From: a virus
Length of the DNA: 40,007 nt
IMG/VR virus record: IMGVR_UViG_3300002835_000439
Coordinates: 1 to 40,007 of that record
Reading direction: 5' to 3' (one strand)
Position 1 is the first letter of the stretch. Each line of letters begins with the position of its first letter. The notes beneath the pieces are model-generated. The model did not search any database. It was not told the origin of the DNA and saw nothing but the letters and a program-made list of their open reading frames with translations. This document shows, one piece after another, positions 24,430-38,266 of the stretch. A program made the position numbers and the translations under genes.

Positions 24430-24762
24430 TTATTTATATTCAGATTCGTATTTTGACTTTAACTCTTCCCAAGCAGCTTTATATTTTGCTGGAATTTTAT
24501 CTGGTCCATATACTCTAGAATTAGATTTTTTAGAAGAACCTACGTTATAGTTTTCACCAGTGTAATATTCCATAAATTCATCTCCGGTTTTTCTTGCACC
24601 ATCATCTTTAATATAAATTCCATACGTGATAAAAGTATCTGAATCTAAGTGACCTTGTAAAATATCGCAAGATGGATTATGGTCTTTATGTGAGTTAAAT
24701 TTAAAATCAATAAATTTAACAGCTTCATTAATGAATTCTTCGTATAATTTAATATGTTTCAT
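24430..24762 (-). CDS. Tagged small protein, capsid-targeting-like N-terminus
   Basis: 110 residues. MKHIKLYEEFINEA is the shared N-terminal tag, resembling T4 internal-protein targeting sequences (MKTYQEFIAEA) with a probable cut after FINE. The mature part is mixed alpha/beta with TFITYGIYIKDDG, EYYTGENYNVG and a helical end AAWEELKSKYESEYK. No family is recognised. It is the last of three consecutive small tagged genes (25488, 25033, 24762) and is followed by a terminator. It may be a packaged internal protein ejected into the host. Confidence 0.7.
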   Translation of the reverse strand: MKHIKLYEEFINEAVKFIDFKFNSHKDHNPSCDILQGHLDSDTFITYGIYIKDDGARKTGDEFMEYYTGENYNVGSSKKSNSRVYGPDKIPAKYKAAWEELKSKYESEYK

Positions 24763-24772
24763 TTTGTTTCGT

Positions 24773-25033
24773 TTATTTAAGATATTGAAAACATGCTTTA
24801 GTAACCTCTTCTACTGTGTTTGCTACTGCATTAAAGTCTTCGATAAAAACTTGACCTTGAATAGTGTCCCATTCAACACCATCTTTAATTCCGTCGAAAT
24901 CAAAGGCAAAAATGCCTTTTTTAGTTTCTTTTACATTAGATATTTCATAAACTCCTTCAAGTTCTTTTAATGCTTTTTTAAGGTCTAATTTTCCTTCGTT
25001 TACGAATTGTTCGAATAATTGGATGTGTTTCAT
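24773..25033 (-). CDS. Tagged small protein, capsid-targeting-like N-terminus
   Basis: 86 residues. MKHIQLFEQFVNEG carries the same tag, with a probable cut after FVNE. The remaining 73 residues have a helix (LDLKKALKELEGVYE), strands GIFAFDFDGIKDG and GQVFIEDFN, and a terminal helix. No family is recognised. The reading frame is separated by 10 nt from the next tagged gene. The leader contains three 10-bp tandem repeats. Confidence 0.7.
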   Translation of the reverse strand: MKHIQLFEQFVNEGKLDLKKALKELEGVYEISNVKETKKGIFAFDFDGIKDGVEWDTIQGQVFIEDFNAVANTVEEVTKACFQYLK

Positions 25034-25063
25034 AATTTAGTTTAATTTAGTTTAATTTAGTTT
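25034..25063. repeat. 10-bp tandem repeat in a gene leader
   Basis: Three copies of AATTTAGTTT stand directly before the start at 25033. They fill the usual ribosome-binding region with A/T sequence. They may be slippage products or a leader element. Confidence 0.75.
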
Positions 25064-25152
25064 TTGTTATATTATTTTTACAGTAGCCGAAACAAATCTT
25101 TCCAAAAGATAATTTCATAATTAGGTTGCAAATAATTTCCATAATATTATTT

Positions 25153-25488
25153 TTATTTTTCGTTAGCTCTACACCAGTTAAGCGCGTCTTTAACAGTTTC
25201 TAATTCCTCGTCGTATCCACTTAAGTCATAAATACCTAAAATGGTTTCTCCATCATCATTTAAGTAGAATGAAAACTCTTCCATTTCTCCTTCGTGTCTA
25301 TCTGCTTCTGATTCTAATCCATTTGCAAATTTAACAATATGCGGAAATTCTTCCATTCCGTCAAATCCCCATGAAATTGATTTTTTATTTTTAGCTTTAG
25401 ATAATTCTTTGAATAATTTTACTAATATTTCTGGTTTTTTATCAGAAGCTTCATTAACAAACTCTTCGAATAACTGTGTGTATTTCAT
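25153..25488 (-). CDS. Tagged small protein, capsid-targeting-like N-terminus
   Basis: 111 residues. MKYTQLFEEFVNEA is the shared tag with a probable cut after FVNE. The acidic body contains SISWGFDGMEEFPHIVKF, EGEMEEFSFYLNDDGET and a terminal helix ending CRANEK. No family is recognised. It has two candidate promoters in tandem: a GATATATAAC motif at 25511-25521 and the host-type promoter at 25523-25574. It may therefore be made both early and late. It heads the trio of small tagged genes. Confidence 0.7.
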   Translation of the reverse strand: MKYTQLFEEFVNEASDKKPEILVKLFKELSKAKNKKSISWGFDGMEEFPHIVKFANGLESEADRHEGEMEEFSFYLNDDGETILGIYDLSGYDEELETVKDALNWCRANEK

Positions 25489-25510
25489 AATTTTTATTTA
25501 TTTTTATTAT

Positions 25511-25521
25511 AGTTATATATC
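25511..25521 (-). promoter_or_regulatory. Candidate late promoter variant, GATATATAACT
   Basis: A minus-strand motif 23 nt upstream of the start at 25488, differing from the consensus in the last base or two. Confidence 0.45.
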
Positions 25522-25522
25522 T

Positions 25523-25574
25523 TTTTAATTTGATATGTAAATATAATCAATTAAAACGAATCGGTAAAACTTTT
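25523..25574 (-). promoter_or_regulatory. Candidate host-type (early) promoter
   Basis: Minus strand AAAAGTTTTACCG (25574-25562) followed by TTGATTATATTTACA (25550-25536), with the same 26-nt block offset as at 4444-4482. The 28 nt at 25523-25550 are identical to 37505-37532 upstream of another gene. Promoter function is inferred from recurrence, spacing and similarity to the Bacteroidetes -33/-7 layout. Confidence 0.55.
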
Positions 25575-25586
25575 TATGTTAAATTT

Positions 25587-26639
25587 TTATCTTTTTTGGA
25601 ATTTGTTTATATTTTGATTAATAATCTCTCCATCCTTTATATCGATCGCTTGATTAACTACTGGATTTTCTGACCATTTAGATGGGTCTACTATAGTTTT
25701 TAAATAGGGAACTAGGGCAGCAGAGATTTCTCTAGAGGCCGCATTCCATAAATATGTTGGAGTATGATCGACGGAATAGTATTGTATTCCCCTATCCAGC
25801 TTAATAATTGGATTTTTAAATGACGTAGGTTCTGCAAAATAAAATCCCATTCCCTTGTCGCAACTAATATCGATAATTGCGCAGTTTCTACGTAATTGAG
25901 CTAATTGATTAGAATCATGAATAAACATTAGAGGATTATTTACATCCTGCAAGACTCCATTAAATATAATATTTGCTGAATAAATATCTTCCCAAACATC
26001 GTCATCTTTAAAGTTTTTATACCAAACATCAGGATTTTTGTCGGCAACTAAATTCGTAGGTCTTTGTGTGTAAACTACAATATTGTTAAACCCTCTACCT
26101 TGTAGGGCATAGATTGCGCCTTTGCTTACTGAACCAAAACCAAAAATAACGACTTTCTTACGTTCACCATAATGTCCATCAAGGCCTGCTAATTGTAGGT
26201 AATGTATAATTCCTGCGTAACCTGCTAGTTCATTGTTGCGATAAAATGAATGTACTCTTGTATTCTTAGTGATGTAATTCATTTCTTCCCATGCAATCAA
26301 TGTTAACTTTTTTTCAATTGCAATGTCAGTAATATCTCGCTGCTGTACTGCGTGAGTCCAACCGCATAATGTTGCTCCAGGTTGCATCTGCAGTAAGTCT
26401 TCGACAAGTGGTTTTGGTAATATAATTATGCCGCATTCTTTAAAAAGATCATTGCGATTGGCAAATTTACAGCCTAGTTGTTCAAGTTGATTGTCAGAAT
26501 ACCCGTAGTCATCACCATAACCTTTTTCAAATAAGAGTTTTTTGATTATTTCTCTTGGTAGCTTTTCAATATGCGATGGATGAATTGGAATACGTTTTTC
26601 GTTTTCCTTTAGCGATGTTTTAAATACTCCTGTTTTCAT
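25587..26639 (-). CDS. N5-(carboxyethyl)ornithine synthase / alanine dehydrogenase-like enzyme
   Basis: 350 residues. The N-terminus KTSLKENEKRIPIHPSHI followed by EKGYGDDYGYSD, then GWTHAVQQRDITDIAIEKK, AWEEM, FYRNNELAGYAGIIHYLQLAG, a Rossmann stretch VVIFGFGSVSKGAIYALQGRG, IIDISCDKGMGFYFAEPT and YSVDHTPTYLWNAASREIS are strongly reminiscent of N5-(carboxyethyl)ornithine synthase. That member of the AlaDH/PNT family reductively condenses pyruvate with an amino acid using NADPH. The exact substrate here is unknown. It has no packaging tag. It starts one base after the ATP-grasp gene stop, so the two likely form a small-molecule pathway. Confidence 0.75.
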   Translation of the reverse strand: MKTGVFKTSLKENEKRIPIHPSHIEKLPREIIKKLLFEKGYGDDYGYSDNQLEQLGCKFANRNDLFKECGIIILPKPLVEDLLQMQPGATLCGWTHAVQQRDITDIAIEKKLTLIAWEEMNYITKNTRVHSFYRNNELAGYAGIIHYLQLAGLDGHYGERKKVVIFGFGSVSKGAIYALQGRGFNNIVVYTQRPTNLVADKNPDVWYKNFKDDDVWEDIYSANIIFNGVLQDVNNPLMFIHDSNQLAQLRRNCAIIDISCDKGMGFYFAEPTSFKNPIIKLDRGIQYYSVDHTPTYLWNAASREISAALVPYLKTIVDPSKWSENPVVNQAIDIKDGEIINQNINKFQKR

Positions 26640-26640
26640 A

Positions 26641-27735
26641 TTAATCCTTTATATTAAAAAAGTACTTATAACCATCTTTTGCCTTTGGGTCTGTTAATAT
26701 TGTATAGTCCATTGCCCATTGAGAAGATTCAATTTCCTTTTTAAATTTTGGGTAGTAGTTCTGGTGGCCAGGTACTACATATTTTAAATAAATGTCCTCT
26801 AAGAATTCGTTGTCTAAAGATTCTCCATAAAAATCTTCATACATTGCTTTGTAAACTTCACACATTTTAACGCTTCCAAGTCCGGTTGCAGATGATGTTT
26901 CCATAATCCACATTTTTCCTTTTTTATCAACAACAATATCTAATGCCCATAAATCTAGGTCTAAAAATGTTTTAACATCTTTACAGATTGCCGACACATT
27001 TTCAATAAATTCAGGATCTACTTTATTTTGGTCTTGATAAACATAAGTAAAACTGATTTTCTCTTCTGCTGTTTTTGTTTTAATTGAACGATCGTCCTCA
27101 ATTCTAGGTACTCTTTCATTAATAACAAAAATCTTGTCTCTACAGAACATTACTCGGTATTCTCTTGCAAAATCTATAAATTGACAAAACAAATCAAATG
27201 TATCTTTACTATCCTCTAATTCTTTGGCAGTATCGAACTTTTGAATTCCAAGTCCGCTATGTCCATCTTTTATTTTTGCAATTACTGGGAAACCTACGTC
27301 TCCGTTAACTGCTTCCTTTTTTGTAAATACTGTTTTTGGAAGCCAATCAAATTTTATTGCTGCTTTTGCAAATTTTACCTTGTCTCCTGATAATGGTAAT
27401 AATTCTCTTTTATTGTAAAGATTGTCGTTGTTTATATTTTTATTCTTTAAAAATGCAACTGCTTCTGGATGTGTTGTTCCTCCAAACCCTCCATAGTAAA
27501 GAATCGGCACGTCAGAAGGTACAGAAACTTTATCATCTTCAAAATCTTCTTTAGTTGCATAATTTAGGAATAAATTTCCTTTTGCAGCAATATTGTATTT
27601 CTTTTCACGGTCATTTACATCACCTGATGTTGATTGAATGTCATTGGATTTCATAATCCATGCTACTTTTTTAGCATATTTATTTTTAAGATTTTCTTTG
27701 TATACGAATTCTTCAAAAAGCTTAATTGGAATCAT
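26641..27735 (-). CDS. ATP-grasp ligase with capsid-targeting-like N-terminus
   Basis: 364 residues. MIPIKLFEEFVYKEN is a version of the N-terminal tag seen on other proteins here. The body has an N-terminal domain (to about 140), then an ATP-grasp fold: FPVIAKIKDGHSGLGIQKFD (glycine-rich loop), FCQFIDFAREYRVMFCRD, and LDLWALDIVVDKKGKMWIME with TSSATGLG, containing the acidic and Asn/Ser metal positions. Such enzymes join carboxylates to amines with ATP. The acceptor is unknown, and the adjacent opine-dehydrogenase-like gene suggests an amino-acid-derived product. An exact late motif lies 21 nt upstream. If the tag is real, the enzyme may travel in the virion. Otherwise the resemblance is a shared cloned 5' end. 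Confidence 0.72.
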   Translation of the reverse strand: MIPIKLFEEFVYKENLKNKYAKKVAWIMKSNDIQSTSGDVNDREKKYNIAAKGNLFLNYATKEDFEDDKVSVPSDVPILYYGGFGGTTHPEAVAFLKNKNINNDNLYNKRELLPLSGDKVKFAKAAIKFDWLPKTVFTKKEAVNGDVGFPVIAKIKDGHSGLGIQKFDTAKELEDSKDTFDLFCQFIDFAREYRVMFCRDKIFVINERVPRIEDDRSIKTKTAEEKISFTYVYQDQNKVDPEFIENVSAICKDVKTFLDLDLWALDIVVDKKGKMWIMETSSATGLGSVKMCEVYKAMYEDFYGESLDNEFLEDIYLKYVVPGHQNYYPKFKKEIESSQWAMDYTILTDPKAKDGYKYFFNIKD

Positions 27736-27755
27736 CTATAGTGTATTATATTTCT

Positions 27756-27765
27756 ATTATATATC
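27756..27765 (-). promoter_or_regulatory. Candidate late promoter of the ATP-grasp gene, GATATATAAT
   Basis: An exact motif 21 nt upstream of the start. Its flanks match those of the protease/scaffold promoter at 10845-10854 almost base for base. Confidence 0.55.
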
Positions 27766-27780
27766 CATCTTTTTAAACAT

Positions 27781-27812
27781 AAAAAAGCAGGGAGTAGCGA
27801 ATTCCCTGCTTT
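27781..27812 (-). terminator. Rho-independent terminator after nrdA
   Basis: Minus strand AAAGCAGGGA, loop ATTCGCTAC, TCCCTGCTTT then a run of T. It ends the polymerase-NrdB-NrdA unit just before the ATP-grasp promoter. Confidence 0.87.
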
Positions 27813-27814
27813 AC

Positions 27815-27866
27815 TTTCCGTGAACTAGTCCCGGTCCTAAAATGCAATCATATTTCAGATTGCCGT
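27815..27866 (-). other. Structured 3' UTR element after nrdA
   Basis: Minus strand: stem GCAATC/GATTGC with loop TGAAATAT, then AGGACCG, then a CCG/CGG stem, then the terminator. The layout parallels 24382-24425, although the stems differ in sequence, which hints at conserved structure. Confidence 0.45.
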
Positions 27867-27870
27867 ATTT

Positions 27871-29496
27871 TTATCCTTCACAGCTTGAACATTCAAGAAT
27901 ATCTCTTGCAAATGACTGTGCAGAACTTTGACTAAATTGATAGTATAAAGTTTTAATCCCTTCTTCGTGAGCATATAGATATAGTGTATTAATATCTTTA
28001 GCTGAAACTGAAGGATGTATCATTAAATTTAATGACTGTGATTGATCGATAAAATGTTGTCTTTGAGCCGCTTGTAAAACTATTTCCTTTGGACTGATTT
28101 CAACAAATGATTTAAAAACTTCTTTTGTTGGGAAATCTAAATGTTGAACACTTCCATCTCTTTTTAAGATTCCTTCCCAAACATCTGTTGTATTTAAGCC
28201 GTATTTTTCAAGTTCCTCAATTAACATTGGATTTTTGTAAATTGTTTTTGACTTTGCCAAATCCTTAATAAAATAATTAGATTTAATTGGCTCAATTCCC
28301 ATACTTACCTGTCCTAATATAAATGAACTACTTTTTGTTGGAGCAATTGCAATTAATGTAGTGTTTGCATATCCTGGTCGGATTGATCTGTAACCTTTCT
28401 CATCATGTAACCATCTTGAAGCTGCTTCACTACGTTCTTTCATTGTTGAAAAGATTTCGTGGTTTAATTGTTTGGCTTTAAGAGAATCAAATGTAATTAA
28501 TTTAGATTGAAATAATGAGTGATAGCCTAAAACTCCAAGTCCTAATGCTCTATGATCGTTTGCAAATCTCCATGCTCTTTTCATACCAGGCATGTTATAA
28601 GATTTAAGTATGAATTCGTCCATAACTGCGTTTAAGAACATTGTGTAAACTTCAATTGCATCAGTTTCTTTAATTTCATCCCAATGTAATAAGTTAATAG
28701 AACCTAAACAACAAACAAAAGAATTAAAACTGTCAGTTGGTAATTGAATTTCTGAACATAAGTTACTTGCAGTAATATCAAGTCCTAATTCTTTATATGG
28801 AGAATTATTATTTGAATTGTCTTTAAACATAATGTAAGGAAAACCAAACTCATTACGTCTTTGAATAACTTTAGCCCAAACTTTACGTTTGTCAGCATCT
28901 CCAGCTTTCATTTCGTCCAACCAAGCATCAGTTACTGTTACACCGTATTGTAAATTTTGAATTGGATTACCATCAGTTCCAATATCTAAGAATTCTAAAA
29001 TATCGTTATGTTCGATTGGTAACCATGCTGCGCATGCTCCTCTTCTTGCTTCTGATTGTTTACATACATCAACTGTTGTATCGTACATTCTAGCATAATG
29101 AACTGGTCCGTCTGCTGTTCCTCCGGTTGAGATTTTAGTTCCTCTTGCTCTGATGTTTCCTAAAAATACTGAAGTACCACCTCCATATTTCGACATCATT
29201 CCAATTTCTCTGCTTCCATTTAAGATACTATCTAATGTATCATCAACATTGCTTCCATAACAACTAACTGGAAGTCCTTTGTCTTTTCCATAGTTGATCC
29301 AAACTGGTGTTGAAAAACTATAGAATCCTCTTGTCATATAGTCCTCGAACTTTTTTGCAAACCCTTCAATTTTTAATTGTTTTTCTGCAGTGTTTGCTAC
29401 ATCTTTAATTCGCTGTTCTGGAGATTCTTTAATATAACCTCTAGATAAAAATGTTCTACTGTCTTCATTAAGCCAGTAATTCTTTGTGTATTCCAT
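27871..29496 (-). CDS. nrdA: Ribonucleotide reductase large subunit, class I
   Basis: 541 residues, short for NrdA because there is no N-terminal ATP-cone. Catalytic residues are visible: VSCYG (Cys79), NLCSEI (Cys247, Glu249), FVCCLGS (second redox cysteine near 263) and a C-terminal CSSC pair (536, 539) that shuttles electrons. YGGGTSVFLGNIRARGT and the finger segment IAPTKSSSFILGQ are typical. It reduces ribonucleoside diphosphates for phage DNA synthesis with NrdB, whose gene is 23 nt upstream. Loss of the ATP-cone means no dATP activity feedback through that domain, as is common in phages. Confidence 0.96.
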   Translation of the reverse strand: MEYTKNYWLNEDSRTFLSRGYIKESPEQRIKDVANTAEKQLKIEGFAKKFEDYMTRGFYSFSTPVWINYGKDKGLPVSCYGSNVDDTLDSILNGSREIGMMSKYGGGTSVFLGNIRARGTKISTGGTADGPVHYARMYDTTVDVCKQSEARRGACAAWLPIEHNDILEFLDIGTDGNPIQNLQYGVTVTDAWLDEMKAGDADKRKVWAKVIQRRNEFGFPYIMFKDNSNNNSPYKELGLDITASNLCSEIQLPTDSFNSFVCCLGSINLLHWDEIKETDAIEVYTMFLNAVMDEFILKSYNMPGMKRAWRFANDHRALGLGVLGYHSLFQSKLITFDSLKAKQLNHEIFSTMKERSEAASRWLHDEKGYRSIRPGYANTTLIAIAPTKSSSFILGQVSMGIEPIKSNYFIKDLAKSKTIYKNPMLIEELEKYGLNTTDVWEGILKRDGSVQHLDFPTKEVFKSFVEISPKEIVLQAAQRQHFIDQSQSLNLMIHPSVSAKDINTLYLYAHEEGIKTLYYQFSQSSAQSFARDILECSSCEG

Positions 29497-29519
29497 TTAA
29501 GTTCGCTATGTTTTTAATT

Positions 29520-30497
29520 TTAAAATAAGTCGTCTTCGGTAATTGCCTTAGACTTTTTGTTGTAGTCGATTGATTTTTTATAGAAGAAATCACCCTCTTT
29601 TGTTGAAAGAATTTCAACGTCAAACCATAAAGATTTCTCTACTTCTGTAAAATCAACATCAAATACTGGTTTCATACCAATTCTTGATAATGAATTGTTG
29701 AAACGATTTTGAATAAATTGTTTAATGGTTTCTTTTGATAGGAAATCAAGTTCTCCCTTTTCGAAAATCCAATCAAGAATTTTAACCTCTGCCAAATACG
29801 CTTTTTTACAAGCAGAATCGATAAGTTGTTCAAATTCCTCATCGAACCATTCTGGATTTTCTCTCTTAATAATATTGATTAATTCAGAACCAAAGTTTCC
29901 GTGGATTTCCTCCTCTTTACTTGTTGCTTCAACTACATTTGAAATACCTTTAAATAAGTTTTTCTCTTTGTTGAAAGACATCATAATAAAGAATTGGCTA
30001 AATAAACTAACATGCTCAATAAACAATGAAAATAACAATACGGATTTCGTATACATTTTATTGTCCTTACTTCTTGTACCATCCAAATACTTTGACAAGT
30101 ATGCAATTCTATCTTTAATTGCTGGAATCTCTACTACATGTTGGAATTCGTCTTCTAATCCTAAGATTCTTAATAATTGTGCGTAAGCATCTTTATGTCT
30201 TACTTCAGATTCAGCAAATGTCATACCAACATCTCCAATTTCTGTGATAGGCATTCTTTTATAAAGATCTGCCCAAAATGTTTTAACATTAACTTCGATT
30301 TGAGCAATCGCTAACATTGCTCTTTTAATTACTTCACGTTCTGAATCAGACACTTTAGTCATAAAATCATCGATGTCTGTTGTGAAGTTAAATTCTGTGT
30401 GAATCCAATATGAATGTCGGATTGCATCTTTATATGCTAATAAGGAAGGGTACTCGTACGGTAAAATATTTACTCTCTTTTCGAAGATGTTATTCAT
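29520..30497 (-). CDS. nrdB: Ribonucleotide reductase small subunit, class I
   Basis: 325 residues. Metal ligands can be read as Glu68, Glu98, His101, Glu161, Glu196 and His199 (SEVRHKDAY, FIEHVS, EEEIHG), and the radical tyrosine is Tyr105. The first ligand is Glu where E. coli NrdB has Asp. The C-terminus ITEDDLF is the expected NrdA-docking tail. It precedes nrdA, the reverse of the usual nrdA-nrdB order. A GATAAATAAT variant motif lies 28 nt upstream. Confidence 0.95.
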   Translation of the reverse strand: MNNIFEKRVNILPYEYPSLLAYKDAIRHSYWIHTEFNFTTDIDDFMTKVSDSEREVIKRAMLAIAQIEVNVKTFWADLYKRMPITEIGDVGMTFAESEVRHKDAYAQLLRILGLEDEFQHVVEIPAIKDRIAYLSKYLDGTRSKDNKMYTKSVLLFSLFIEHVSLFSQFFIMMSFNKEKNLFKGISNVVEATSKEEEIHGNFGSELINIIKRENPEWFDEEFEQLIDSACKKAYLAEVKILDWIFEKGELDFLSKETIKQFIQNRFNNSLSRIGMKPVFDVDFTEVEKSLWFDVEILSTKEGDFFYKKSIDYNKKSKAITEDDLF

Positions 30498-30524
30498 GAT
30501 TTGGAATTCGTTTTTTTATTAGTT

Positions 30525-30534
30525 ATTATTTATC
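30525..30534 (-). promoter_or_regulatory. Possible promoter variant, GATAAATAAT
   Basis: One base differs from the GATATATAAT motif. It lies 28 nt upstream of nrdB and overlaps the stop of the polymerase N-terminal gene. It is weaker than the exact copies and may be chance in AT-rich DNA. Confidence 0.25.
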
Positions 30535-31927
30535 TAAGTCTCTTAGCTAATTCGTCTGCTTTTGTGTAATATTCATAAGACGTTTTCTTATAATCTTTAC
30601 GTTGAGAATATAGATCGCTTAGTATTTTTCGGAGGATTGAATCTTCAGTTTTATATACTACGCCGTTATCACATACAATTACATTCTTGTCTTTTCGTCT
30701 TTCATCAATTTCACTTTTATAAATCTTTTCAATATAAGCGTCGGGTGAAATATTGAATTGACGCATAATTGAAGGATATAGGGAAGCAAAATCGAATGCA
30801 CTTACTCCTTCATAAAATCCTAAAATTGGTTCTTTTACAAATGCTCCAGCGTATTGGCCATCTTTTTGACCATCTGCTTTTTCTTCACTTCCAATTCTCA
30901 TTCCCTGTTCTGCAAGTTTTCTGGCCATAATAGCTTCAGTAACTGCCACTGGAGAACTTGCCTTATAAAGTGGCATGTTTGTAATATTTGCAAGTGTTAG
31001 TAATACTTCCATTGATTTTAATTTCTGATCAATGTAATAAACTAGCACTGAATCGACTACGTTATAGTAGATATATTTAACAAAATTATCTCGATACAAA
31101 TCTTGAAGAGATCCTGTAAATTTAATCTTGTTAACATTAAGTACTTGGCTAGAAACATAATCAAGAGAGTTTGATTCTTTTACTTTAACAGAACGATCAT
31201 ATTTATCGTACAATTGCATATAATCCAAGATTCCAATATGAAGAGGACGACCGTCAGTATTATCAATAGATCCTGTCATTCCAATTTCTTTAATGTCGAT
31301 TTGAAGTCTCTTACAACGATTAACAATATATTGCCAGTCATAGTTAATAAAATTCCATCCGGTCATCATTGGAAACTTAGGTAAGAATTTCATCAGGAAT
31401 GTATTTACCATGTCATACTCAGATTTGAACTTATGGTACTTGAATTCCCAATCCATATCAAAATCTTTGAAGTACTCATTAGTATCATCTTGAATCTTTT
31501 GAATTTTATCTGAAGCCATATCTTCAAGACCTAAAACGATTGCTTTACGGTCTGGTGTAATAATTGAGAATGAAAGGATTCTACTTTTAGCCTCTTCAGC
31601 TTTTGGAAATCCATCAACAATCTCAGTTTCAATATCGACGAAATAGGTTTTCGGCATATTGTAAGCTGTTAAGTCAGCTTTATCTTTCTCAGAAAGGCTA
31701 TCTAAGAAATATAGGATCGAAAACTTATTGAATTGTCTTCCATATCCTAATTTGACCGAACGGCCGTCCCAGTTTTTATACTCTGGACTAGCCGCTCTGT
31801 CTTTGTCATCACAAACATACCAGTTTTGGAACTTGTCCACTGGATATTGCTTGAATGCTACTTCTCCTTTGTCATTATAGTATGAAATGATTACATCTTT
31901 TTCACGCTGTTCGATGTCTAATATCAT
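30530..31927 (-). CDS. 43A: DNA polymerase gp43, N-terminal half (43A)
   Basis: 465 residues of family B polymerase. The proofreading motifs are present: Exo I FVDIETE (Asp98, Glu100), Exo II GWNFINYDWQYIVNR (near 190-205) and Exo III YIYYNVVDSVLVYYID. Motif A is DFASLYPSIM (Asp379). It ends with the first fingers helix (LYSQRKDYKKTSYEYYTK) and a stop, so motifs B and C are missing and are supplied by 22327-23523. Added together the halves give 863 residues (T4 gp43 is 898). The break falls at the fingers tip, so little or nothing is lost. It starts directly after the dUTPase stop. Confidence 0.94.
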   Translation of the reverse strand: MILDIEQREKDVIISYYNDKGEVAFKQYPVDKFQNWYVCDDKDRAASPEYKNWDGRSVKLGYGRQFNKFSILYFLDSLSEKDKADLTAYNMPKTYFVDIETEIVDGFPKAEEAKSRILSFSIITPDRKAIVLGLEDMASDKIQKIQDDTNEYFKDFDMDWEFKYHKFKSEYDMVNTFLMKFLPKFPMMTGWNFINYDWQYIVNRCKRLQIDIKEIGMTGSIDNTDGRPLHIGILDYMQLYDKYDRSVKVKESNSLDYVSSQVLNVNKIKFTGSLQDLYRDNFVKYIYYNVVDSVLVYYIDQKLKSMEVLLTLANITNMPLYKASSPVAVTEAIMARKLAEQGMRIGSEEKADGQKDGQYAGAFVKEPILGFYEGVSAFDFASLYPSIMRQFNISPDAYIEKIYKSEIDERRKDKNVIVCDNGVVYKTEDSILRKILSDLYSQRKDYKKTSYEYYTKADELAKRLR

Positions 31928-32395
31928 TTAATATCCTCTTTTTTGACGGTTAACATTTTCTTCGGCTTTTGCGAAGTAATAATTGTATGCTGTTTTTGCA
32001 TCTAATCCGATTGAAGATGCATAGTTTATAAAGAAGTGGAGAATATCTACCCATTCCATATAAAGTTCTTTTTTATCATCTTCAGAAAGATCAGAGATTT
32101 TCATTGTTTCAAACTTTGAAAAGTCTTTTTTCCAGTATTTCCATACTGCATTTCCACTTCCATCTTTAATACCTCCAAGAGCATCTGTCATTTCGTGAAT
32201 TTCATCAACTACAGCATGCGTGTTAACATGCCAAAAGTTCATAATATCTCTAATTGACATCTCTTCGAAATTAAAACCATAAGTTTGCTCTTGCATTTTC
32301 TTTTGGTTTTCCATGATGTCGGCTAGATGTGTTGTTGATTCATTATAGAAGTCTTTTACTTCTAAATCTTTACATTCGTTGTCTATGTTTGCCAT
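31928..32395 (-). CDS. All-alpha dUTPase/dCTPase (dimeric, gp56-like)
   Basis: 155 residues. VVDEIHEMTDALGG and WKYWKKDF followed by ELYMEWVDILHFFINYASSI and YNYYFAKAEENVNRQKRGY are the metal-binding E-x-x-E and E-x-x-D helices of the MazG-like dimeric dUTPase family, which includes T4 gp56 dCTPase-dUTPase. It removes dUTP and possibly dCTP from the nucleotide pool. Its place beside a candidate thymine-modification gene and ribonucleotide reductase fits control of modified-nucleotide supply. Confidence 0.82.
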   Translation of the reverse strand: MANIDNECKDLEVKDFYNESTTHLADIMENQKKMQEQTYGFNFEEMSIRDIMNFWHVNTHAVVDEIHEMTDALGGIKDGSGNAVWKYWKKDFSKFETMKISDLSEDDKKELYMEWVDILHFFINYASSIGLDAKTAYNYYFAKAEENVNRQKRGY

Positions 32396-32419
32396 ATTTA
32401 TTTTTTTATAGTTGTTATA

Positions 32420-33469
32420 TTAAAAAAGAGCATTTTGTTCAAAATTATTATTAAAAAAATATTCCATTAGATTCTCATCAACACGGGCAACTTTCCTTCT
32501 GCTAATTAAGTGTGGATTATTTCTTAGTCGGTAATAAACTCCGTACTGACAAAGTCCAACCTCACATCCATACGTTTTAAGTTCATCTTGCTCATGTCTA
32601 AAAATCTTTTTACCATCAACTACAATATTGTGTGTAGATTCATGTAATGGAATTTCTCCAATAAGTTCTTTATAATTTTCGCGGAACCAAATAACTCTAT
32701 CACCATGAGGTACTGTGCAATCTGAACCAAATATTAAATCTAATGTAAATCTGGCTCCAGGTCCTGGTACACAATATCTTTCGTCATGGTCTATATTGAT
32801 TCTTGGATTTACAGAGTTCGATGTTGAACAGTGATATCCGTAGTAAGACCCTACACCTTCGATTTCTGTTAGTATATTAAACATTTCAGATAAAGAGTTA
32901 ACCTGGGCCATCCTTCCTGTGATTCCTCGAGGTATAAAAGAGGCAACCCATAAGAGAATATTAACCTTATGAGCATCTCTTGGTTGGTTTCTCGATTCAG
33001 CAACATAATTATTGGCTGCTCCAAAAAGACTGGTACGTAATTCAGTAGATCCATATATCGGTAGTCCTAAAGAAACAGCATCTTCTAAATTCTTACGAAT
33101 CTTATTTTCATATTCTCGATCAACTAATAATCTTTCAAAATCTATTAGCGCTGTTTTTGGATTTGGATCTCTTGTAAGTACTTGGTGAATACCTCTGGCT
33201 CCATAAAAGTGAGAAATAATTGTGTTGCATATAATACTATCCATGGATAACGGTGCATTCACAATGTTTTCCATGATATATCGCATACGATCATCTAACG
33301 TAATTTGTGGGTGGAAATATTCAACAGTTTCTCCAAGGGCTTCATCTCCTCCACTATCATAACTTTCAAGAACTCCCATATTAAAAAGGGCTCTTTCATT
33401 AACTTTATTAAAGAATCTTCCGACGTCTTTAATAATGTCCATGTTTGCAACTTCTGCTAAGTTTTCCAT
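32420..33469 (-). CDS. Candidate alpha-glutamyl/putrescinyl thymine pyrophosphorylase-like protein
   Basis: 349 residues, helical. ILTEIEGVGSYYGYHCSTSN, then HDERYCVPGPGARFTLDLIF (PGPGAR at 235-240), resembles the helix-hairpin-helix, glycosylase-like core of the aGPT-pyrophosphorylase / 5-hmdU DNA kinase helical family (G-x-G-x-F-x-x-Y-Q, then V-x-PGPGA). Members act on pyrophosphorylated hydroxymethyl-uracil in phage DNA to attach amines or amino acids. The C-terminus has a cysteine pair (YGCEVGLCQYG) and ends QNALF. Neighbours include dUTPase, an FkbM methyltransferase and a HAD phosphatase. The family call is by motif and should be tested. Confidence 0.55.
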   Translation of the reverse strand: MENLAEVANMDIIKDVGRFFNKVNERALFNMGVLESYDSGGDEALGETVEYFHPQITLDDRMRYIMENIVNAPLSMDSIICNTIISHFYGARGIHQVLTRDPNPKTALIDFERLLVDREYENKIRKNLEDAVSLGLPIYGSTELRTSLFGAANNYVAESRNQPRDAHKVNILLWVASFIPRGITGRMAQVNSLSEMFNILTEIEGVGSYYGYHCSTSNSVNPRINIDHDERYCVPGPGARFTLDLIFGSDCTVPHGDRVIWFRENYKELIGEIPLHESTHNIVVDGKKIFRHEQDELKTYGCEVGLCQYGVYYRLRNNPHLISRRKVARVDENLMEYFFNNNFEQNALF

Positions 33470-33476
33470 TTATGTT

Positions 33477-34154
33477 TTATTTTTTAAACCAGCAATCGTA
33501 TCCTCCAATATGTTTGAATACTTCAAAGCTATTAACTTGATTGTTTGGGTATAATTCAGTTAATAAGTCAATTGTTGGTTGTGCGAATTGTTTTACTTTA
33601 CCCATGTGTAATTCTACAAAGATAACTTCAGGGTAGTAGTTTGCAACATCTTGAATTATATCATACTCTGCTCCTTCAATATCGATTTTAATAATATCTG
33701 GTTTGTATGTTTCTAATAATTCTTTGATGTGAATATTTCTAACCTCGTCATATTCTCCAAATGAACTTCTTTTAAGAATTGAAGTTGAACAATGGGCTCC
33801 TGCTGAATTTCCTTTGTAAATCTTGATAGTTTCATCATCGCATCCAGAAACAGCTGCATGAATAATGTTTGCCTTTGGTTCTTCTGCAAAACTAGTTTGT
33901 AGCTTTTGATAATTTCTTGGATCACATTCTACTGTATAAACAGCTGCAGCTCCTCCGTCGATCGCAATTTTTGTAAATCCTCCAACATTACCACCTAAGT
34001 CTAGACATACTTTACCAGTATAATCAACATCGTCATGAATATAGTGTCTTATACAATCTTTAACCATGTCGCGGTCGACCCTTTCTGTTGCGTCTAAATA
34101 GATACAATATTCTCTTTTTAGTCTATTAAATTGTTTTTGTTCTGTGGTCCACAT
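33477..34154 (-). CDS. FkbM-family SAM-dependent methyltransferase
   Basis: 225 residues. The SAM-binding motif I is KVCLDLGGNVGGFTKIAI (from 48), with an acidic end of strand 2 (VYTVECDPRNYQKL) and the FkbM hallmark PDIIKIDIEGAEYDII (near 154-168), then VIFVELHMG. These enzymes O-methylate sugars or other small groups. The target is unknown: a modified base or a glycan are both possible. It lies 3 nt downstream of the HAD gene and 7 nt upstream of the pyrophosphorylase-like gene, within one operon. Confidence 0.85.
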   Translation of the reverse strand: MWTTEQKQFNRLKREYCIYLDATERVDRDMVKDCIRHYIHDDVDYTGKVCLDLGGNVGGFTKIAIDGGAAAVYTVECDPRNYQKLQTSFAEEPKANIIHAAVSGCDDETIKIYKGNSAGAHCSTSILKRSSFGEYDEVRNIHIKELLETYKPDIIKIDIEGAEYDIIQDVANYYPEVIFVELHMGKVKQFAQPTIDLLTELYPNNQVNSFEVFKHIGGYDCWFKK

Positions 34155-34156
34155 AT

Positions 34157-34558
34157 TTATTTTTTTACTAAAGAAGATACTATATTTACTAATTGAATCT
34201 GGGAATGGTTTTCCTGAATGATTTGATATTGAATTGGGTCATCTTCAAAAAATCTAGTAATGTTAACTCCATTATCTAAAAGATTTCCAATCGTTTTAGC
34301 TTTATGATTTCCTGAAAACGTTCTAGCTTCTACTGTATGATTTCCTCGCTGAGCAAGTGTCATTGGATTAAAGTAAACCTTGCACTTGATTCCGCGTTCT
34401 TTTAAGATTGCTTTAATCTCTTCTTGTTCATCGATACATCTTCCGGTTATAATAACGTCGCTTTCTGATCTTGGCGTAATTCCTATTGAGATTACTCCAT
34501 CAAAATCATATCCATAAACTTCTTCGTTTGTTTTTTTCTTTTTAAAAATATTTAACAT
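34157..34558 (-). CDS. Small HAD-superfamily phosphatase-like protein
   Basis: 133 residues. HAD motif I YDFDGVI (Asp18, Asp20), motif II VIITGR (35-40), a candidate motif III lysine in NHKAKTIG and motif IV FFEDDPIQ (from 102) are in the expected order. There is no cap domain, which suits large or macromolecular substrates. It starts after the terminator of the inositol-phosphate synthase gene and begins the operon with FkbM, so a phosphate-removing step in that pathway is plausible. Confidence 0.78.
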   Translation of the reverse strand: MLNIFKKKKTNEEVYGYDFDGVISIGITPRSESDVIITGRCIDEQEEIKAILKERGIKCKVYFNPMTLAQRGNHTVEARTFSGNHKAKTIGNLLDNGVNITRFFEDDPIQYQIIQENHSQIQLVNIVSSLVKK

Positions 34559-34576
34559 TCGCTGTCTTTTTTGATA

Positions 34577-34604
34577 AAAAAAGAGAGCTTAGAGCTCTCT
34601 TTTT
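34577..34604 (-). terminator. Rho-independent terminator after inositol-phosphate synthase
   Basis: Minus strand AAAAAGAGAGCT, loop CTA, AGCTCTCTTTTT: a perfect 12-pair stem followed by further T. Confidence 0.9.
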
Positions 34605-34618
34605 CATAGATTAATTAA

Positions 34619-35812
34619 TTAAAGAGCGTTGGTTGCAGCAACTAATTGTTTTCTTGTAGAATCAGTTAAGCGTCTTGCAGCTAATTCAGTACACTCATAA
34701 ACAGCATCCGAGAACATCATCTGATCTGGTGGAGTTTTTTGTGTAAACGCTGAAGGACCTCTTAATGCTCCAACAACTCCTAATTCTCTTGCTACTTTTA
34801 GGTAACGAACTGCGTCGATTACAACTCCGGCAGAGTTTGGTGAATCTTGTACGCTTAATTGAGCATCAAAAAGAACTGGTGCTCCTCCAAATCCTTCAAG
34901 TTCTAAACGGAAGTTAGCAACTTTGTTATCTCCATAGAATGAGATGTACTCAGAAGGACCTGCATGTAAGAATGAATCTTCAGTTGAGATTCCTCTAATT
35001 TCGTTTTGTGCACGAATAACATTTTCTTTCGAAATCTTTTTAGAAGCTAAACGTGATTTATCTTCCATGTTTAAGAAATCTGTGTTACCTCCAACGTTTC
35101 TTTGGATGTGTGCTTTTACGTGGTGACCTCTTTCAAAAGCCAATTCTTGTAGCATTTGAGAAAGAATACTTGCTCCAAATTGAGAACGCATATCATCTCC
35201 AATTAATGGAATTCCAGCGTCGATAAATCTTTGCTCCCATGCAGGGTCAGATGCAATAAATACAGGAATACAGTTTACAAACGAGATTCCAGTTTCTAGA
35301 CAGATTTCAGCCCAAAATTCTGTAGTTTTTTGAGAACCTACTGGTAAGTAGTTAATCAATACTTCTACCTCATGCTCTTTTAATTTAGCAATAATTTGGT
35401 CTTTCCACTCTCTAGCCTTTCTAGGAGTCCAATCAGTACGATTTTTGTCAGTTGAGTTTCTTAATTTCTCATCAACTAAAAATCTGTTTGCTTCTGGATA
35501 GTTATCCATCAATGCAGCGTAACCGTCGATTACGGGTGCTTCATAAACCGGTGCTGTAGAAGTAATAACATCAACGATGTCATACGCGCAGTTTGGTTTT
35601 TGTTTTAATGCATATCCAAGAGTTTGATTAACTTTACGTTCGTCAATTTCGAATGCACATGTAAATTCAATATTTTCAGCTTTGTAACCTCCAATATCTG
35701 ATTTCATCATACCTGTGATGTTGTTCGTGTTTTCTGTATAGAACTGAACTCCTTCAACCAATGATTTTGCACAATTTCCTGTGCCAATAATTCCAACTTT
35801 AATTTTGTTCAT
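34619..35812 (-). CDS. Myo-inositol-1-phosphate synthase
   Basis: 397 residues. The NAD-binding loop VGIIGTGNCAKSLVEG (from 6), SDIGGYKAENIEFTCAFEID, FVNCIPVFIASDPAWEQRF, IPLIGDDMRSQFGAS, NVGGNTDFLNM and SRLASKKISKE are hallmarks of the bacterial/archaeal inositol-phosphate synthase family, which converts glucose-6-phosphate to inositol-1-phosphate. It has near full family length. Such a gene is unusual in a phage. The product could feed phospholipid, glycan or base modification, and the adjacent HAD enzyme could dephosphorylate it. It sits in a leader-rich, terminator-bounded single unit. Confidence 0.88.
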   Translation of the reverse strand: MNKIKVGIIGTGNCAKSLVEGVQFYTENTNNITGMMKSDIGGYKAENIEFTCAFEIDERKVNQTLGYALKQKPNCAYDIVDVITSTAPVYEAPVIDGYAALMDNYPEANRFLVDEKLRNSTDKNRTDWTPRKAREWKDQIIAKLKEHEVEVLINYLPVGSQKTTEFWAEICLETGISFVNCIPVFIASDPAWEQRFIDAGIPLIGDDMRSQFGASILSQMLQELAFERGHHVKAHIQRNVGGNTDFLNMEDKSRLASKKISKENVIRAQNEIRGISTEDSFLHAGPSEYISFYGDNKVANFRLELEGFGGAPVLFDAQLSVQDSPNSAGVVIDAVRYLKVARELGVVGALRGPSAFTQKTPPDQMMFSDAVYECTELAARRLTDSTRKQLVAATNAL

Positions 35813-35865
35813 TTTGTTAAAAATTTAATTTTATATTAATTTATACTTGCTTTATTTAAAAAGTT

Positions 35866-36915
35866 TCAAAAAAGACTATTAATAGTTTTCTTTAATGTTT
35901 TATTTTTTTCGGACGTCTCGAAATCATATTGATAAAACTCTCTAGATAAATGAACGGAACCTGGTTTCTCCATATAAGTGTCTGCAAAATACTTTGGATC
36001 TTCCTCATACCAATTGCTTGGCCATTCGATTACATTCATATTATATATAGCCGAGAGATTTGCAACCTCTTCATTAAAGATTTGCATCAATTGAGTTCTT
36101 TCACGCTGAGAACCAATAAATGGGGTTCCTTTATAATATCCAGTCTTTGGGATTCTGCGTTCTTCAAATTCAATTGGAAGTAATTTAACCACCGAAATCT
36201 TTTCAATATTAAGAGATTTCAAATGTTCAAAATAATTCTTTACAAGTTTTTTAGTTGCATCAACTGGTTTTTCTTGGCGACATAAGTGATGACGAACGTC
36301 GATATTTCCAAAGTAAGTTATCAAATGAGTGGTTCCTTCAGGTATATAGGAGGCCATTCCCTCTTTCATAACACCAAACAATGTTTTACCATCATTCCTG
36401 CTAATGTTTCCTCCTGGATGATATGCTGAAACAGAGTGTGAATCTCCTAGAACAAAAGTTCCTGAATTTAATTTCAATTCAATTGTTTGGGTTTCTTTAC
36501 TTCTATTTGAAAGAGCTTCAACATCAAGAGATGCCCATAAAGGGGAACACGCTCTCATTCTACTTTGTGCAAATGCTCCAACATCTGGCATTTCTCTATT
36601 TAAACAATAGATCTGTCCTTTAAAATCTAAGAATCTTTTAATTCTCTCTGCTGGCTCGTCAGTTGCTCCACCAAATAGATTATAAGACCCTTGAAATTCC
36701 ATTGGAAGGGCAACCATCCAAATATCGTATTGTTGAATATCTTCGGACTTTGTAAGTACTTCTGCCTCCAATCCTAAAGAGCGTAATTGATTTGCTAAGA
36801 GAAAAGCCCATGCACTTTTATGGCTAGCTTTCTTAGAACTATATGTAGTTACTACATCATCAATTGCAATCTTCTTGCCTTGTAACGATTCTAAAACTTC
36901 GTAAATGTTAACCAT
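35866..36915 (-). CDS. SGNH/GDSL-like hydrolase
   Basis: 349 residues from the ATG at 36915. The frame continues to 36969, but MVNIYEVLES overlaps the preceding gene by only 8 nt and is the better start. FVLGDSHSVSAYHPGG (GDSHS 157-161) is an SGNH block I with catalytic serine, YFGNIDVRHH (near 201-210) resembles the N/G blocks, and PGSVHLS near 326 provides the block V histidine. These enzymes remove acyl groups or act as O-acyl esterases on glycans. The N-terminal 150 residues are a separate alpha/beta domain. The C-terminus TINSLF repeats the LF-tail pattern. Confidence 0.65.
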   Translation of the reverse strand: MVNIYEVLESLQGKKIAIDDVVTTYSSKKASHKSAWAFLLANQLRSLGLEAEVLTKSEDIQQYDIWMVALPMEFQGSYNLFGGATDEPAERIKRFLDFKGQIYCLNREMPDVGAFAQSRMRACSPLWASLDVEALSNRSKETQTIELKLNSGTFVLGDSHSVSAYHPGGNISRNDGKTLFGVMKEGMASYIPEGTTHLITYFGNIDVRHHLCRQEKPVDATKKLVKNYFEHLKSLNIEKISVVKLLPIEFEERRIPKTGYYKGTPFIGSQRERTQLMQIFNEEVANLSAIYNMNVIEWPSNWYEEDPKYFADTYMEKPGSVHLSREFYQYDFETSEKNKTLKKTINSLF

Positions 36916-37183
36916 TGTTTTGTTTTTCTTCGATGTAGTTATCCAATCCTTGGATGTATGCAACTGCATCTAATAAGTTATCACGCTTGTGATTGTAAGA
37001 TTCTCTTGAAAATTTAAGTGCAACTAATGCCTTAAACATGTGTTCTCCGGTAACTTCAATTCCTGTCATACCGGTAAAAATCATTGCAGCTCTGTCCATG
37101 CCTTCTGAGAAAGGACCATATTGTCTATCTGCTTCTTCTGAGCGGTTATTAACTATTCCGCTTGCTTCATCTAAAATGTTCAT
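36908..37183 (-). CDS. Small phage protein, DUF6378-like
   Basis: 91 residues. RQYGPFSEGMDRAAMIFTGM, ALVALKFSRESYNHK and DNLLDAVAYIQGLD follow the pattern of a small helical phage family (R-x-x-x-YG, then ALKxAR and K-x-Dn-x-D-x-x-x-Y), which I know as DUF6378. Its biochemical role is not established. A CAATATATAAC motif lies 24 nt upstream. The end overlaps the SGNH-like gene by 8 nt. Confidence 0.65.
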   Translation of the reverse strand: MNILDEASGIVNNRSEEADRQYGPFSEGMDRAAMIFTGMTGIEVTGEHMFKALVALKFSRESYNHKRDNLLDAVAYIQGLDNYIEEKQNNG

Positions 37184-37206
37184 AAAATAAATTTTAAGTA
37201 TTATAT

Positions 37207-37218
37207 GTTATATATTGG
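37207..37218 (-). promoter_or_regulatory. Candidate promoter variant, CAATATATAAC
   Basis: A relative of the GATATATAAT motif, 24 nt upstream of the start at 37183. Confidence 0.3.
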
Positions 37219-37227
37219 TTTTGTTTT

Positions 37228-37494
37228 TTATGCACGTAAATAATTAGGATCGTCATAACTTCCAACAACTCCGGTTTCCATTTCAAACTGACGTTTTTCA
37301 TGGTCATATTCAGAATAAACATTGCAATTTAGGTAAGCTCCTTGTTTGGAATATTTTCCAATGTATGAAGTTGCTGTGCGAACTTCTGATGGATTAATGT
37401 TAAAACAAAAATCATACTCTTCTTGAGTCAAGTATGTTTGAGTGTTCATAATTTGATTGTAGCGTTCTTGGTCTTGAATTGAAATCGTTGTCAT
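37228..37494 (-). CDS. Hypothetical protein, 88 aa
   Basis: MTTISIQDQERYNQIMNTQT opens a small soluble protein. Two features are an EEYDFCFNINPSEV stretch and GKYSKQGAYLNCNVYSEYDH, with two cysteines about 28 residues apart. No family is recognised. It stands alone after the 37546-37587 terminator and is probably transcribed from the 28-nt element at 37505-37532 that also precedes the gene at 25488. Confidence 0.6.
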   Translation of the reverse strand: MTTISIQDQERYNQIMNTQTYLTQEEYDFCFNINPSEVRTATSYIGKYSKQGAYLNCNVYSEYDHEKRQFEMETGVVGSYDDPNYLRA

Positions 37495-37504
37495 AATGTA
37501 TAAG

Positions 37505-37532
37505 TTTTAATTTGATATGTAAATATAATCAA
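37505..37532 (-). promoter_or_regulatory. Candidate promoter; 28-nt exact copy of the element at 25523-25550
   Basis: On the minus strand it includes TTGATTATATTTACATATC. It lies 11 nt upstream of the start at 37494. The upstream AAAAGTTTTACCG block found at the other two sites is not present here; a TTTG-like stretch (GTCAAATG) occurs instead. Confidence 0.5.
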
Positions 37533-37545
37533 AACATTTGACATA

Positions 37546-37587
37546 AAAAAATCCTGGTTAAAAAGTTATTAACAATTTTACCAGGAT
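37546..37587 (-). terminator. Rho-independent terminator of the structured RNA
   Basis: Minus strand ATCCTGGT ... ACCAGGAT (37587-37580 with 37558-37551) with an inner AAAA/TTTT and GTTA/TAAC pairing, followed by a run of T. It ends the transcript that carries the tagged gene 37901-38266 and the non-coding region. Confidence 0.85.
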
Positions 37588-37739
37588 TCTAATTTAATAC
37601 GGGATAGTTGTTCGTGATTTTCTTCTCGGCAGAATAACCCTTTTTTACGTCTTCGGCTTTTACTTTCGCGAGCGTCTACTAAACTTTGACCCATCCTACT
37701 TGTAACCTATTGGGGTGGTATGACGTTTGTTTATTTTTT

Positions 37740-37751
37740 ATCCTGGTTAAA
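37740..37751. repeat. 12-nt direct repeat shared with the terminator arm
   Basis: ATCCTGGTTAAA at 37740-37751 is repeated exactly at 37551-37562, which is the 3' arm of the terminator hairpin (on the minus strand, TTTAACCAGGAT). The upstream copy can compete for the same 5' arm at 37580-37587. Confidence 0.8.
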
Positions 37752-37900
37752 CTTCCATTTGCCTATCCGCCGAAGCTTTTAATGGATAATTGGCTATCAT
37801 AGCTGTGTGTACTTTTTGCTGTACCTATCCTCCAGGTTCCATTCCGTTGCTAGTTAATAATTGCTTGAGTATTGTTTGCTGTAAGGAACCTAATTTCTTT

Positions 37901-38266
37901 TTATTTAATAATTATAAATGAACCTCCTCTAGAAGATGCAGATTCAGATCTACCATCGGCTAATGTAACTGAAGCTACTGCTTCTCCTCCGATTGTTGTA
38001 GCAACTTCTTGAGCAACTTGAGTTACTTCAAAAAATACAATACTTCCACCATTGTCTGCTAAAATATTATATCCAGTACCTTCTACGGTATTAGGTTTTT
38101 TAATAATCTTATTGATAGTACCATCAACTTTTTTAGCAGTCATATTAACGATGAAAACACCAGTACGACTTTTGTAAGCTTTTGGGCTTTGAGCATTTTC
38201 AATTGGCTCATACACATTGTGATCAGATTCGTTTACAAAATCTTCAAATAGTTTAATATGTTTCAT
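37901..38266 (-). CDS. Tagged small protein, capsid-targeting-like N-terminus
   Basis: 121 residues. MKHIKLFEDFVNES is the clearest form of the shared tag, with a probable cut after FVNE. The mature part is beta-rich (TGVFIVNMTAKKVDGTINKI, GYNILADNGGSIVFFEVTQV) and ends in a glycine/serine-rich stretch SASSRGGSFIIIK. No family is recognised. It follows the DUF2828-like gene by 26 nt, carries a GATATATAAA motif upstream and leads into the structured RNA region. A packaged internal protein is inferred. Confidence 0.72.
   Translation of the reverse strand: MKHIKLFEDFVNESDHNVYEPIENAQSPKAYKSRTGVFIVNMTAKKVDGTINKIIKKPNTVEGTGYNILADNGGSIVFFEVTQVAQEVATTIGGEAVASVTLADGRSESASSRGGSFIIIK

Follow-up and report, generated by a model that had tools for sequence, protein, structure and literature searches.

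A predicted T4-like capsid-targeting propeptide on exchangeable modules and putative polyprotein cargo in a phage group far from T4

The internal proteins of T-even phages constitute a diverse set of defence proteins in which only the capsid targeting sequence (CTS) is conserved (PMC3012670). In phage T4, internal proteins IPII and IPIII begin with MKTYQEFIAEA and IPI with MKTFKEFTSTTTPVSTITEATL. For IPIII, targeting was assigned mainly to residues 4 and 7 and processing to residues 8 and 10 (PMC9026906). IPIII lacking the CTS, when made in the host, restores growth on a restrictive strain (PMC9391042); hence, such bodies can act in the cytoplasm. The prohead protease of SPN3US and phiKZ cuts after Glu, and two SPN3US proteins share their N-terminus (PMC5694885, PMC9026906). 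In phage P1, an N-terminal signal of DarB brings a reporter into the head (PMC9024508), while polyvalent proteins, which unite several conflict-related domains in one polypeptide and are thought to be packaged, were likened to viral polyproteins by Iyer et al. 2017 (PMC5512222). The present analysis concerns IMG/VR record IMGVR_UViG_3300002835_000439, positions 1 to 40,007, a 40-kb phage fragment referred to as the window throughout. Five unrelated proteins encoded on it share an N-terminal tag with a consensus near MKHIKLFEEFVNE|A (the bar marks the presumed cut), and two proteins of the head cluster carry looser forms. Judged from sequence, this tag very probably is a T4-like capsid-targeting propeptide of a far-T4 phage group, carried by exchangeable modules and by polyproteins cut by the prohead protease.

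All seven N-termini lie on the minus strand, exactly at the starts named in a preliminary description of this DNA. The five closely similar ones begin at 24762 (MKHIKLYEEFINEA), 25033 (MKHIQLFEQFVNEG), 25488 (MKYTQLFEEFVNEA), 27735 (MIPIKLFEEFVYKE) and 38266 (MKHIKLFEDFVNES). Four of them belong to small putative cargo genes, namely 24430-24762 (110 amino acids, aa; tag 24724-24762, MKHIKLYEEFINE|A), 24773-25033 (86 aa; tag 24995-25033, MKHIQLFEQFVNE|G), 25153-25488 (111 aa; tag 25450-25488, MKYTQLFEEFVNE|A) and 37901-38266 (121 aa; tag 38228-38266, MKHIKLFEDFVNE|S), and the fifth to an ATP-grasp-type enzyme of 364 aa (26641-27735; tag 27694-27735, MIPIKLFEEFVYKE|N). The looser forms reside inside the head cluster, as had been claimed: one on a small protein of 116 aa encoded between portal and protease (10891-11241, minus strand; tag 11194-11241, MRIIKTFEEFTGSLQE|D), the other on a Lys- and acid-rich protein of 385 aa encoded downstream of the capsid gene (6003-7160, minus strand; tag 7113-7160, MKTTKTFESWYSMIME|N), which contains additional x-Glu sites including a C-terminal FILNE|A. 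Behind the tags, the bodies diverge completely; no significant pairwise similarity was found among the seven (best E value 0.11 in a seven-sequence database), and the body of 24773-25033 has no relative among the related loci compared. The propeptides would be 13-16 residues long. Glu followed by A, G or S, described earlier as fitting the gp21 cleavage rule, is present at Glu13 in four of the tags; in 26641-27735 the nearest x-Glu site lies one residue later than Glu13 (YKE|N), in 10891-11241 and 6003-7160 three residues later (LQE|D and IME|N, respectively).

Frequencies were determined in six fetched related contigs and the window, together comprising 1500 genes called by a simple longest-open-reading-frame (ORF) script; the contigs had been found via a strict tag pattern, so the rates describe tagged phages and not phages generally. 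A pattern for the first ten residues, fixing the kinds of residue at positions 4-8 and 10 and leaving position 3 and positions 11-13 free, matched 87 of the 1500 gene starts versus three among 6261 internal methionines; these three resemble genuine tags downstream of an upstream ORF. Window gene 26641 (M-I start) lies outside the 87. Among 24 records, 22 of which were chosen because a strict tag was present, the pattern was found in 23, with as many as 23 matches in a single contig of 234 kb and with each record's matches confined to one strand; the reversed pattern gave no match in any of the 24. At the DNA level, the strict pattern occurs in at least 119 stretches in IMG/VR and has no match in 84,980 prokaryote species genomes. 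Conservation ends at Glu13: position 13 holds 2.13 bits of information, position 14 holds 0.57 and positions 15-20 hold 0.15-0.33. Position 14 is mainly A, S or K, next G or R. Moreover, a hydrophobic-x-Glu site at the unselected positions 11-13 is present in 62 of the 87 tags versus 306 of 12,739 body positions (2.4%). Residues 4, 7, 8 and 10 of IPIII correspond to residues 7, 10, 11 and 13 here, with a three-residue offset and the same spacing.

Each of the six contigs holds 8-23 long-tagged genes, or 11-28 with short forms included. These genes are clustered, tagged neighbours exceeding random placement in five of the six contigs (p ≤ 0.0125); the corresponding values are p 0.056 for contig G001 and p 0.26 for the window. 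A set of 296 proteins falls into 135 body clusters by single linkage, 128 of which carry a canonical tag; the 128-cluster set is biased at positions 11-13 by the strict seed pattern, and site rates are therefore given for the six contigs and the window.

A candidate enzyme for cutting such sites is encoded in the window itself. Gene 8890-10821 on the minus strand, adjoining the capsid gene, specifies a gp21-type prohead protease (Peptidase_S77) with a fused scaffold-like coiled region (phrog_207, 5.6e-42; PF03420, 2.6e-11, 43.8 bits against a curated cut-off of 27) and presumably acts on the tags. It is accompanied on the same strand by genes for the portal protein (11265-12872; phrog_213, 4e-69) and a gp23-type major capsid protein (7266-8720; PF07068, 1.4e-41). 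In an alignment of the capsid proteins of seven genomes, hydrophobic-x-Glu occurs in all seven at LINE|[AS] (LLNE in G001) and at KLYE|D, with LINE|S as the window form. Among the listed phage records, the capsid protein closest to that of the window belongs to LR756500 (52.6% identity), which represents an uncultured phage of 462 kb. Next come Prevotella Lak and other uncultured huge phages, Tenacibaculum phages and Sphingomonas phage PAU. Of 17 large IMG/VR contigs carrying tags, 15 contain both S77 and Gp23 and two, possibly fragments, contain neither; MaF61 has Gp23, no S77 match and no long tag. A second, short S77-like frame (132-135 aa), separate from the head protease, was observed at G007:57359-57613, G008:36115-36369, G010:156418-156672 and LR756500:154951-155127, the last one scoring below the cut-off.

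Bodies that are stand-alone tagged proteins in one phage reappear within larger proteins elsewhere. At 46 nonredundant junctions, located by projecting the body start and dropping near-duplicates more than 60% alike (some junctions may nevertheless share ancestry), hydrophobic-x-Glu lies exactly at the junction in 29 cases, where random positions of these proteins would give 1.1; a tolerance of one residue raises the count to 33 (3.5 expected). Examples of such polyproteins are L056:5722-8214 (831 aa), L056:10588-11742 (385 aa) and G007:181563-184652 (1029 aa), in which the beads are connected by ESVVNE|A-like linkers; the linker pattern gave 55 forward versus 10 reversed matches in the 1500 genes. 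Shorter forms resembling that of T4, for instance MNFDQFLNE|S, stand at the N-terminus of several such large proteins, and the 1029-aa protein begins with MAQVNKISSFKSFTE. Two modules from the window illustrate the exchange. The 831-aa polyprotein has the 24430 module at its N-terminus; in L202 and L204, this module stands behind LDE|A at the C-terminus of a homologue of the untagged window protein 14495-15256 (minus strand; homology by eye). The Glu preceding this module is invariant in all six aligned sequences, two of them internal modules, while the rest of the tag varies (alignment A4, excluding L206 with stops in the range, L208, L201, L203 with figures equal to L200, and short matches). 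Likewise, L224, L227 and L229 carry the 25153 module internally, and the Glu preceding it is invariant in 12 of 12 aligned sequences, three of them internal modules of which L227 and L229 share one, again with the remainder of the tag varying (alignment A5, excluding L223, L225, L228 and L231-L234). The recurrence of tag-borne cargo modules in larger proteins, with a site at most junctions, can be read from these sequences and is what is new here: in openly licensed PubMed Central papers, closed literature being outside the scope, none was found with the letters of the tag, and among the papers listed for prohead proteases with polyproteins, capsid targeting and effectors or anti-defence, none describes such cargo polyproteins in its title or start of abstract. 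Apart from this exchange, three related proteins end in tag-like fashion, namely G007:177017-178888 (L132:15017-16888; MTFEQFINKDI, C-terminus TESVTNEIMTFEQFINKDI), G001:78480-80327 (LTFDEFIKNI) and G011:69381-71219 (LTFNEFIKNI). The G007 protein, the only one of them run against Pfam, has a cytidylyltransferase domain (2.8e-7), and the ends may perhaps be C-terminal targeting signals.

With conservation ending at the P1 Glu, a spacing as in IPIII, a gp21-type protease in the genome, a tagged gene between portal and protease and sites at module junctions, the capsid-targeting and gp21-cleavage reading put forward in the preliminary description gains support. Less uniform is the picture for its proposal that the bodies are anti-defence or host-takeover effectors. 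Some relatives agree with it (Tad3, Acb1-like, GNAT, nucleotidyltransferases), while four of the five tagged window proteins yielded no function. Only 26641-27735 could be classed, as ATP-grasp, by a profile match to D-Ala-D-Ala ligase (6.1e-7); its match to R2K_2 (2.9e-4) is below the cut-off. For the 25153 family, a predicted structure (predicted local distance difference test, pLDDT, 60.3) gave no Foldseek match in the PDB at E ≤ 0.001, and the prediction for the 37901 family was unusable (mean pLDDT 48.5). Searched against Pfam at E 0.01, 133 tagged representatives yielded 42 families, and among the 25 listed, 23 occur in one protein each. The listed families include Tad3 (4.8e-22), DUF5661, Zeta_toxin, CTP_transf_like, HD, PAP2, GNAT and ATP-grasp; one tagged protein is Acb1/2'-5' RNA ligase-like (3.6e-5, below its own cut-off). 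From its Pfam name, we take Tad3 to be an inhibitor of Thoeris. It occurs in 6 of 54 records, and four of the proteins were examined; three are tagged (G016, G004, L060) and one is untagged (G001:139203-139799), as if the tag had been gained or lost on the same domain. The tagged Tad3 cargo of relatives supports anti-defence roles for some tagged proteins. PADLOC returned two weak matches for the 133 representatives (PbeC, 1.5e-4; PD-T4-2_A, 5.8e-4). Some assignments were discarded: the match of 24430 to a PHROG internal head protein (E value 0.13) was too weak to be used, L003:119-898 as an ADP-ribosyltransferase (by eye) received no confirmation from Pfam, and matches such as Ty3_capsid and KIF9 were taken as chance.

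The nature of the bodies also bears on an alternative in which tagged proteins serve in the prohead core or in assembly, are broken down or ejected as the head matures and thus do not take part in injection. Two tagged genes, 10891-11241 and 6003-7160, do lie in the head cluster, and their products are acidic or Lys-rich like core proteins. Set against this are the variety of bodies, which spans 128 clusters with a canonical tag, and the character of those that Pfam recognises, which resemble enzymes or are immune inhibitors (ATP-grasp, nucleotidyltransferase, GNAT, HD, Zeta-type kinase, Tad3), so that we regard core factors as an unlikely explanation.

A second alternative would reduce the tag to a good substrate of the prohead protease, with entry into the head by way of another protein part or bulk inclusion. 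T4 gp23 offers a similar context, AFGSFLTEAE, where it is presumably cut, and junction sites within larger proteins mostly come without the MKHIKL part. The portion before the site is, however, under its own constraint, since position 3, left free in the pattern, carries 2.88 bits and residues 1-6 predict the remainder. Among 71 gene starts picked by residues 1-6 alone, a selection made because the first-ten pattern itself imposes residues 4-8 and 10, aromatics at 7 and 10 are found in 70, and 51 combine them with I, L or V at 11 and Glu13. Given also that the N-terminal half of IPIII is the targeting part (PMC9026906), a substrate-only tag appears quite improbable.

Very unlikely is a tag directing its proteins elsewhere (membrane, replication compartment or host partner) with no relation to the head: such a helix, being short, could bind to surfaces outside the head, but the gp21-type site at the tag end, the tagged gene between portal and protease and the recurrence of the same site at junctions of larger proteins argue against this. 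An ordinary shared helix, a single protein family or a repeated DNA element, the first two of which the preliminary description had itself raised, can practically be dismissed in view of 135 body clusters among 296 proteins, seven unrelated window bodies, module exchange between tagged and larger proteins, synonymous drift within the tags and no clear shared upstream motif. In 130 codon comparisons among the five window tags, 52 codons are identical, 34 differ synonymously and 44 change the amino acid, which rules out a recent DNA duplication. A conserved upstream element was rejected as well, enriched words being mostly A-rich or rare (TGGTAA, 10 of 86).

Several observations weigh against a capsid-targeting propeptide, some of them with a counterpart in its favour. 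Hydrophobic-x-Glu at positions 11-13 is missing from 25 of the 87 tags. When 50 distinct tags without it were pooled, 32 had a site ending at positions 14-26, versus 27% expected, which speaks for the propeptide, and 18 had none through position 26. Among 19 homologue pairs, x-Glu clearly stays at the start of the body in seven although residues have been inserted (e.g., FINE|STINNF versus FVETRQLYE|STINNF; the body boundary is likewise kept between ITE|DAMRAGED in G001 and LQE|DAIEAGED in window gene 10891-11241), and a roughly equal number have lost the site, which is thus not indispensable in every protein. LR756504 has five pattern matches, with the site at 11-13 in none of the four examined (starts 297629, 372451, 577725 and 603539); these have the targeting half, two of them with a site ending at position 20 or 22, and are perhaps uncut packaged proteins. 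In LR756500, three of four tags have the site at 11-13. At 17 of the 46 junctions no exact site is found, and 35 of the 55 linker matches, among them the 1029-aa G007 protein's, fall in genes without a recognised tag. The long pattern has no match in PAU, PTm1, Lak-A1, LR756501, phiKZ, crAss001, P-SSM2 or T4 (short forms were sought only in T4), hence not even in gp23-type-head relatives such as PAU, PTm1 and Lak-A1, and PAU and PTm1 lack it yet have an annotated head protease; the long form is, accordingly, lineage-specific. A late-promoter-like motif, TATAAATA, is not enriched upstream of tagged genes (3.5% of 86 versus 2.7% of 1201 untagged), and virion proteomics for this phage group was not found. 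Finally, a relaxed pattern, set with T4 already in mind, matches 3 of 271 T4 ORFs (IPII, IPIII and gp61.1) and misses IPI, while a looser pattern finding IPI matches 12 ORFs.

The tag and its boundary, the protease and capsid genes and the exchange of modules with sites at most junctions are shown by the sequences. From these we infer that tagged proteins dock, are cut, packaged and injected, and that their bodies act as effectors. According to the capsid-targeting reading, the N-terminal half of the tag, with its aromatics at positions 7 and 10, would attach a newly made protein to the core of the prohead during assembly. Once the shell has closed, the S77 protease (8890-10821) would cut after Glu13 or a shifted Glu, and the body thereby freed inside the head would enter the next host together with the DNA. 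Bodies would be exchangeable modules, standing alone behind a tag or forming a bead in a larger protein; with these same hydrophobic-x-Glu sites between the beads, many small proteins would be set free by one protease. On balance, though with distinctly less assurance, we favour a further step in which dozens of modules, including known immune inhibitors, move among single-tag proteins, polyprotein beads and fusions at the C-terminus of conserved phage proteins, with prohead-protease sites usually flanking them. A single protease would then cut a large and fast-changing set of first-minute effectors out of long chains inside the head. If true, the injected proteins of an uncultured phage group could be read from genomes via tag and junction sites. 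The question of which proteins enter with the DNA would become searchable, and the resulting candidate list, mostly without known function and with a few immune-inhibitor domains, would be a source of new anti-defence proteins.

Beyond the tagged set, 42 of 47 called genes of the window lie on the minus strand, and the count of transfer RNA genes is zero. Few genes have Shine-Dalgarno-like words (AAGGA lies within 80 bases of 7.0% of 86 tagged versus 8.7% of 1201 untagged genes), a scarcity that would fit putative Bacteroidota hosts. Two genes adjoin tagged ones: 38293-39720, encoding a DUF7788/DUF2828 protein (7.8e-54 and 8.1e-33), lies next to 37901-38266, and 25587-26639, whose untagged product resembles alanine dehydrogenase/transhydrogenase (PF05222, 1e-15), is the neighbour of the tagged ATP-grasp gene. 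A family B DNA polymerase is distributed over two separate genes about 7 kb apart (22327-23523 and 30530-31927), one holding the exonuclease and the start of the polymerase domain, the other a later portion of that domain. Additionally, 32420-33469 encodes a protein with a 5-hydroxymethyldeoxyuridine DNA kinase helical domain (PF18723, 2.1e-13), a hint that thymine may be hypermodified in the DNA of this phage, and 34619-35812 a myo-inositol-1-phosphate synthase (PF01658, 4e-23), which to our knowledge is unusual for a phage.

Compared with described systems, the tag resembles the T4 CTS of IPI, IPII and IPIII in being N-terminal, preceding unrelated bodies and ending in hydrophobic-x-Glu before a small residue. 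Two aromatics three positions apart recall Tyr4 and Phe7 of IPIII, a gp21-family protease and a gp23-type head are encoded in the same genome as in T4, and IPI has a later x-Glu like the shifted tags here. In contrast to the T4 CTS, the tag is three residues longer (MKHIKLFEEFVNE versus MKTYQEFIAE), in line with the long pattern matching none of 271 T4 ORFs; short T4-like forms (MNFDQFLNE|S) coexist with long tags in the same contigs. In T4 itself, gp61.1 (L188 18966-19130, 54 aa, annotated as hypothetical) begins with MKTFKEFIKED, fits the internal-protein pattern and is a candidate for an extra internal protein. As in the SPN3US and phiKZ propeptides, the gp21-type site ends in Glu, whereas several of those propeptides exceed 100 residues and the tags here span 13-16. 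DarB of P1 likewise uses an N-terminal signal, head targeting being the predicted role here, but P1 Dar proteins have no common consensus, while here one motif is placed on many genes. In polyvalent proteins, release is by embedded peptidase domains, whereas the junctions described here fit the phage's own prohead protease; no peptidase family of Pfam was found in the two large polyproteins scanned (L132:12254-14992 and L133:1566-4652). The comparison supports a tag that works like the T4 capsid targeting sequence, as a longer variant of it. Unlike the three internal proteins of T4, 8-23 long-tagged genes are present per contig and modules also occur in polyproteins, and, if the reading is true, distant relatives of T4 have expanded its internal-protein idea into a modular system of polyprotein cargo.

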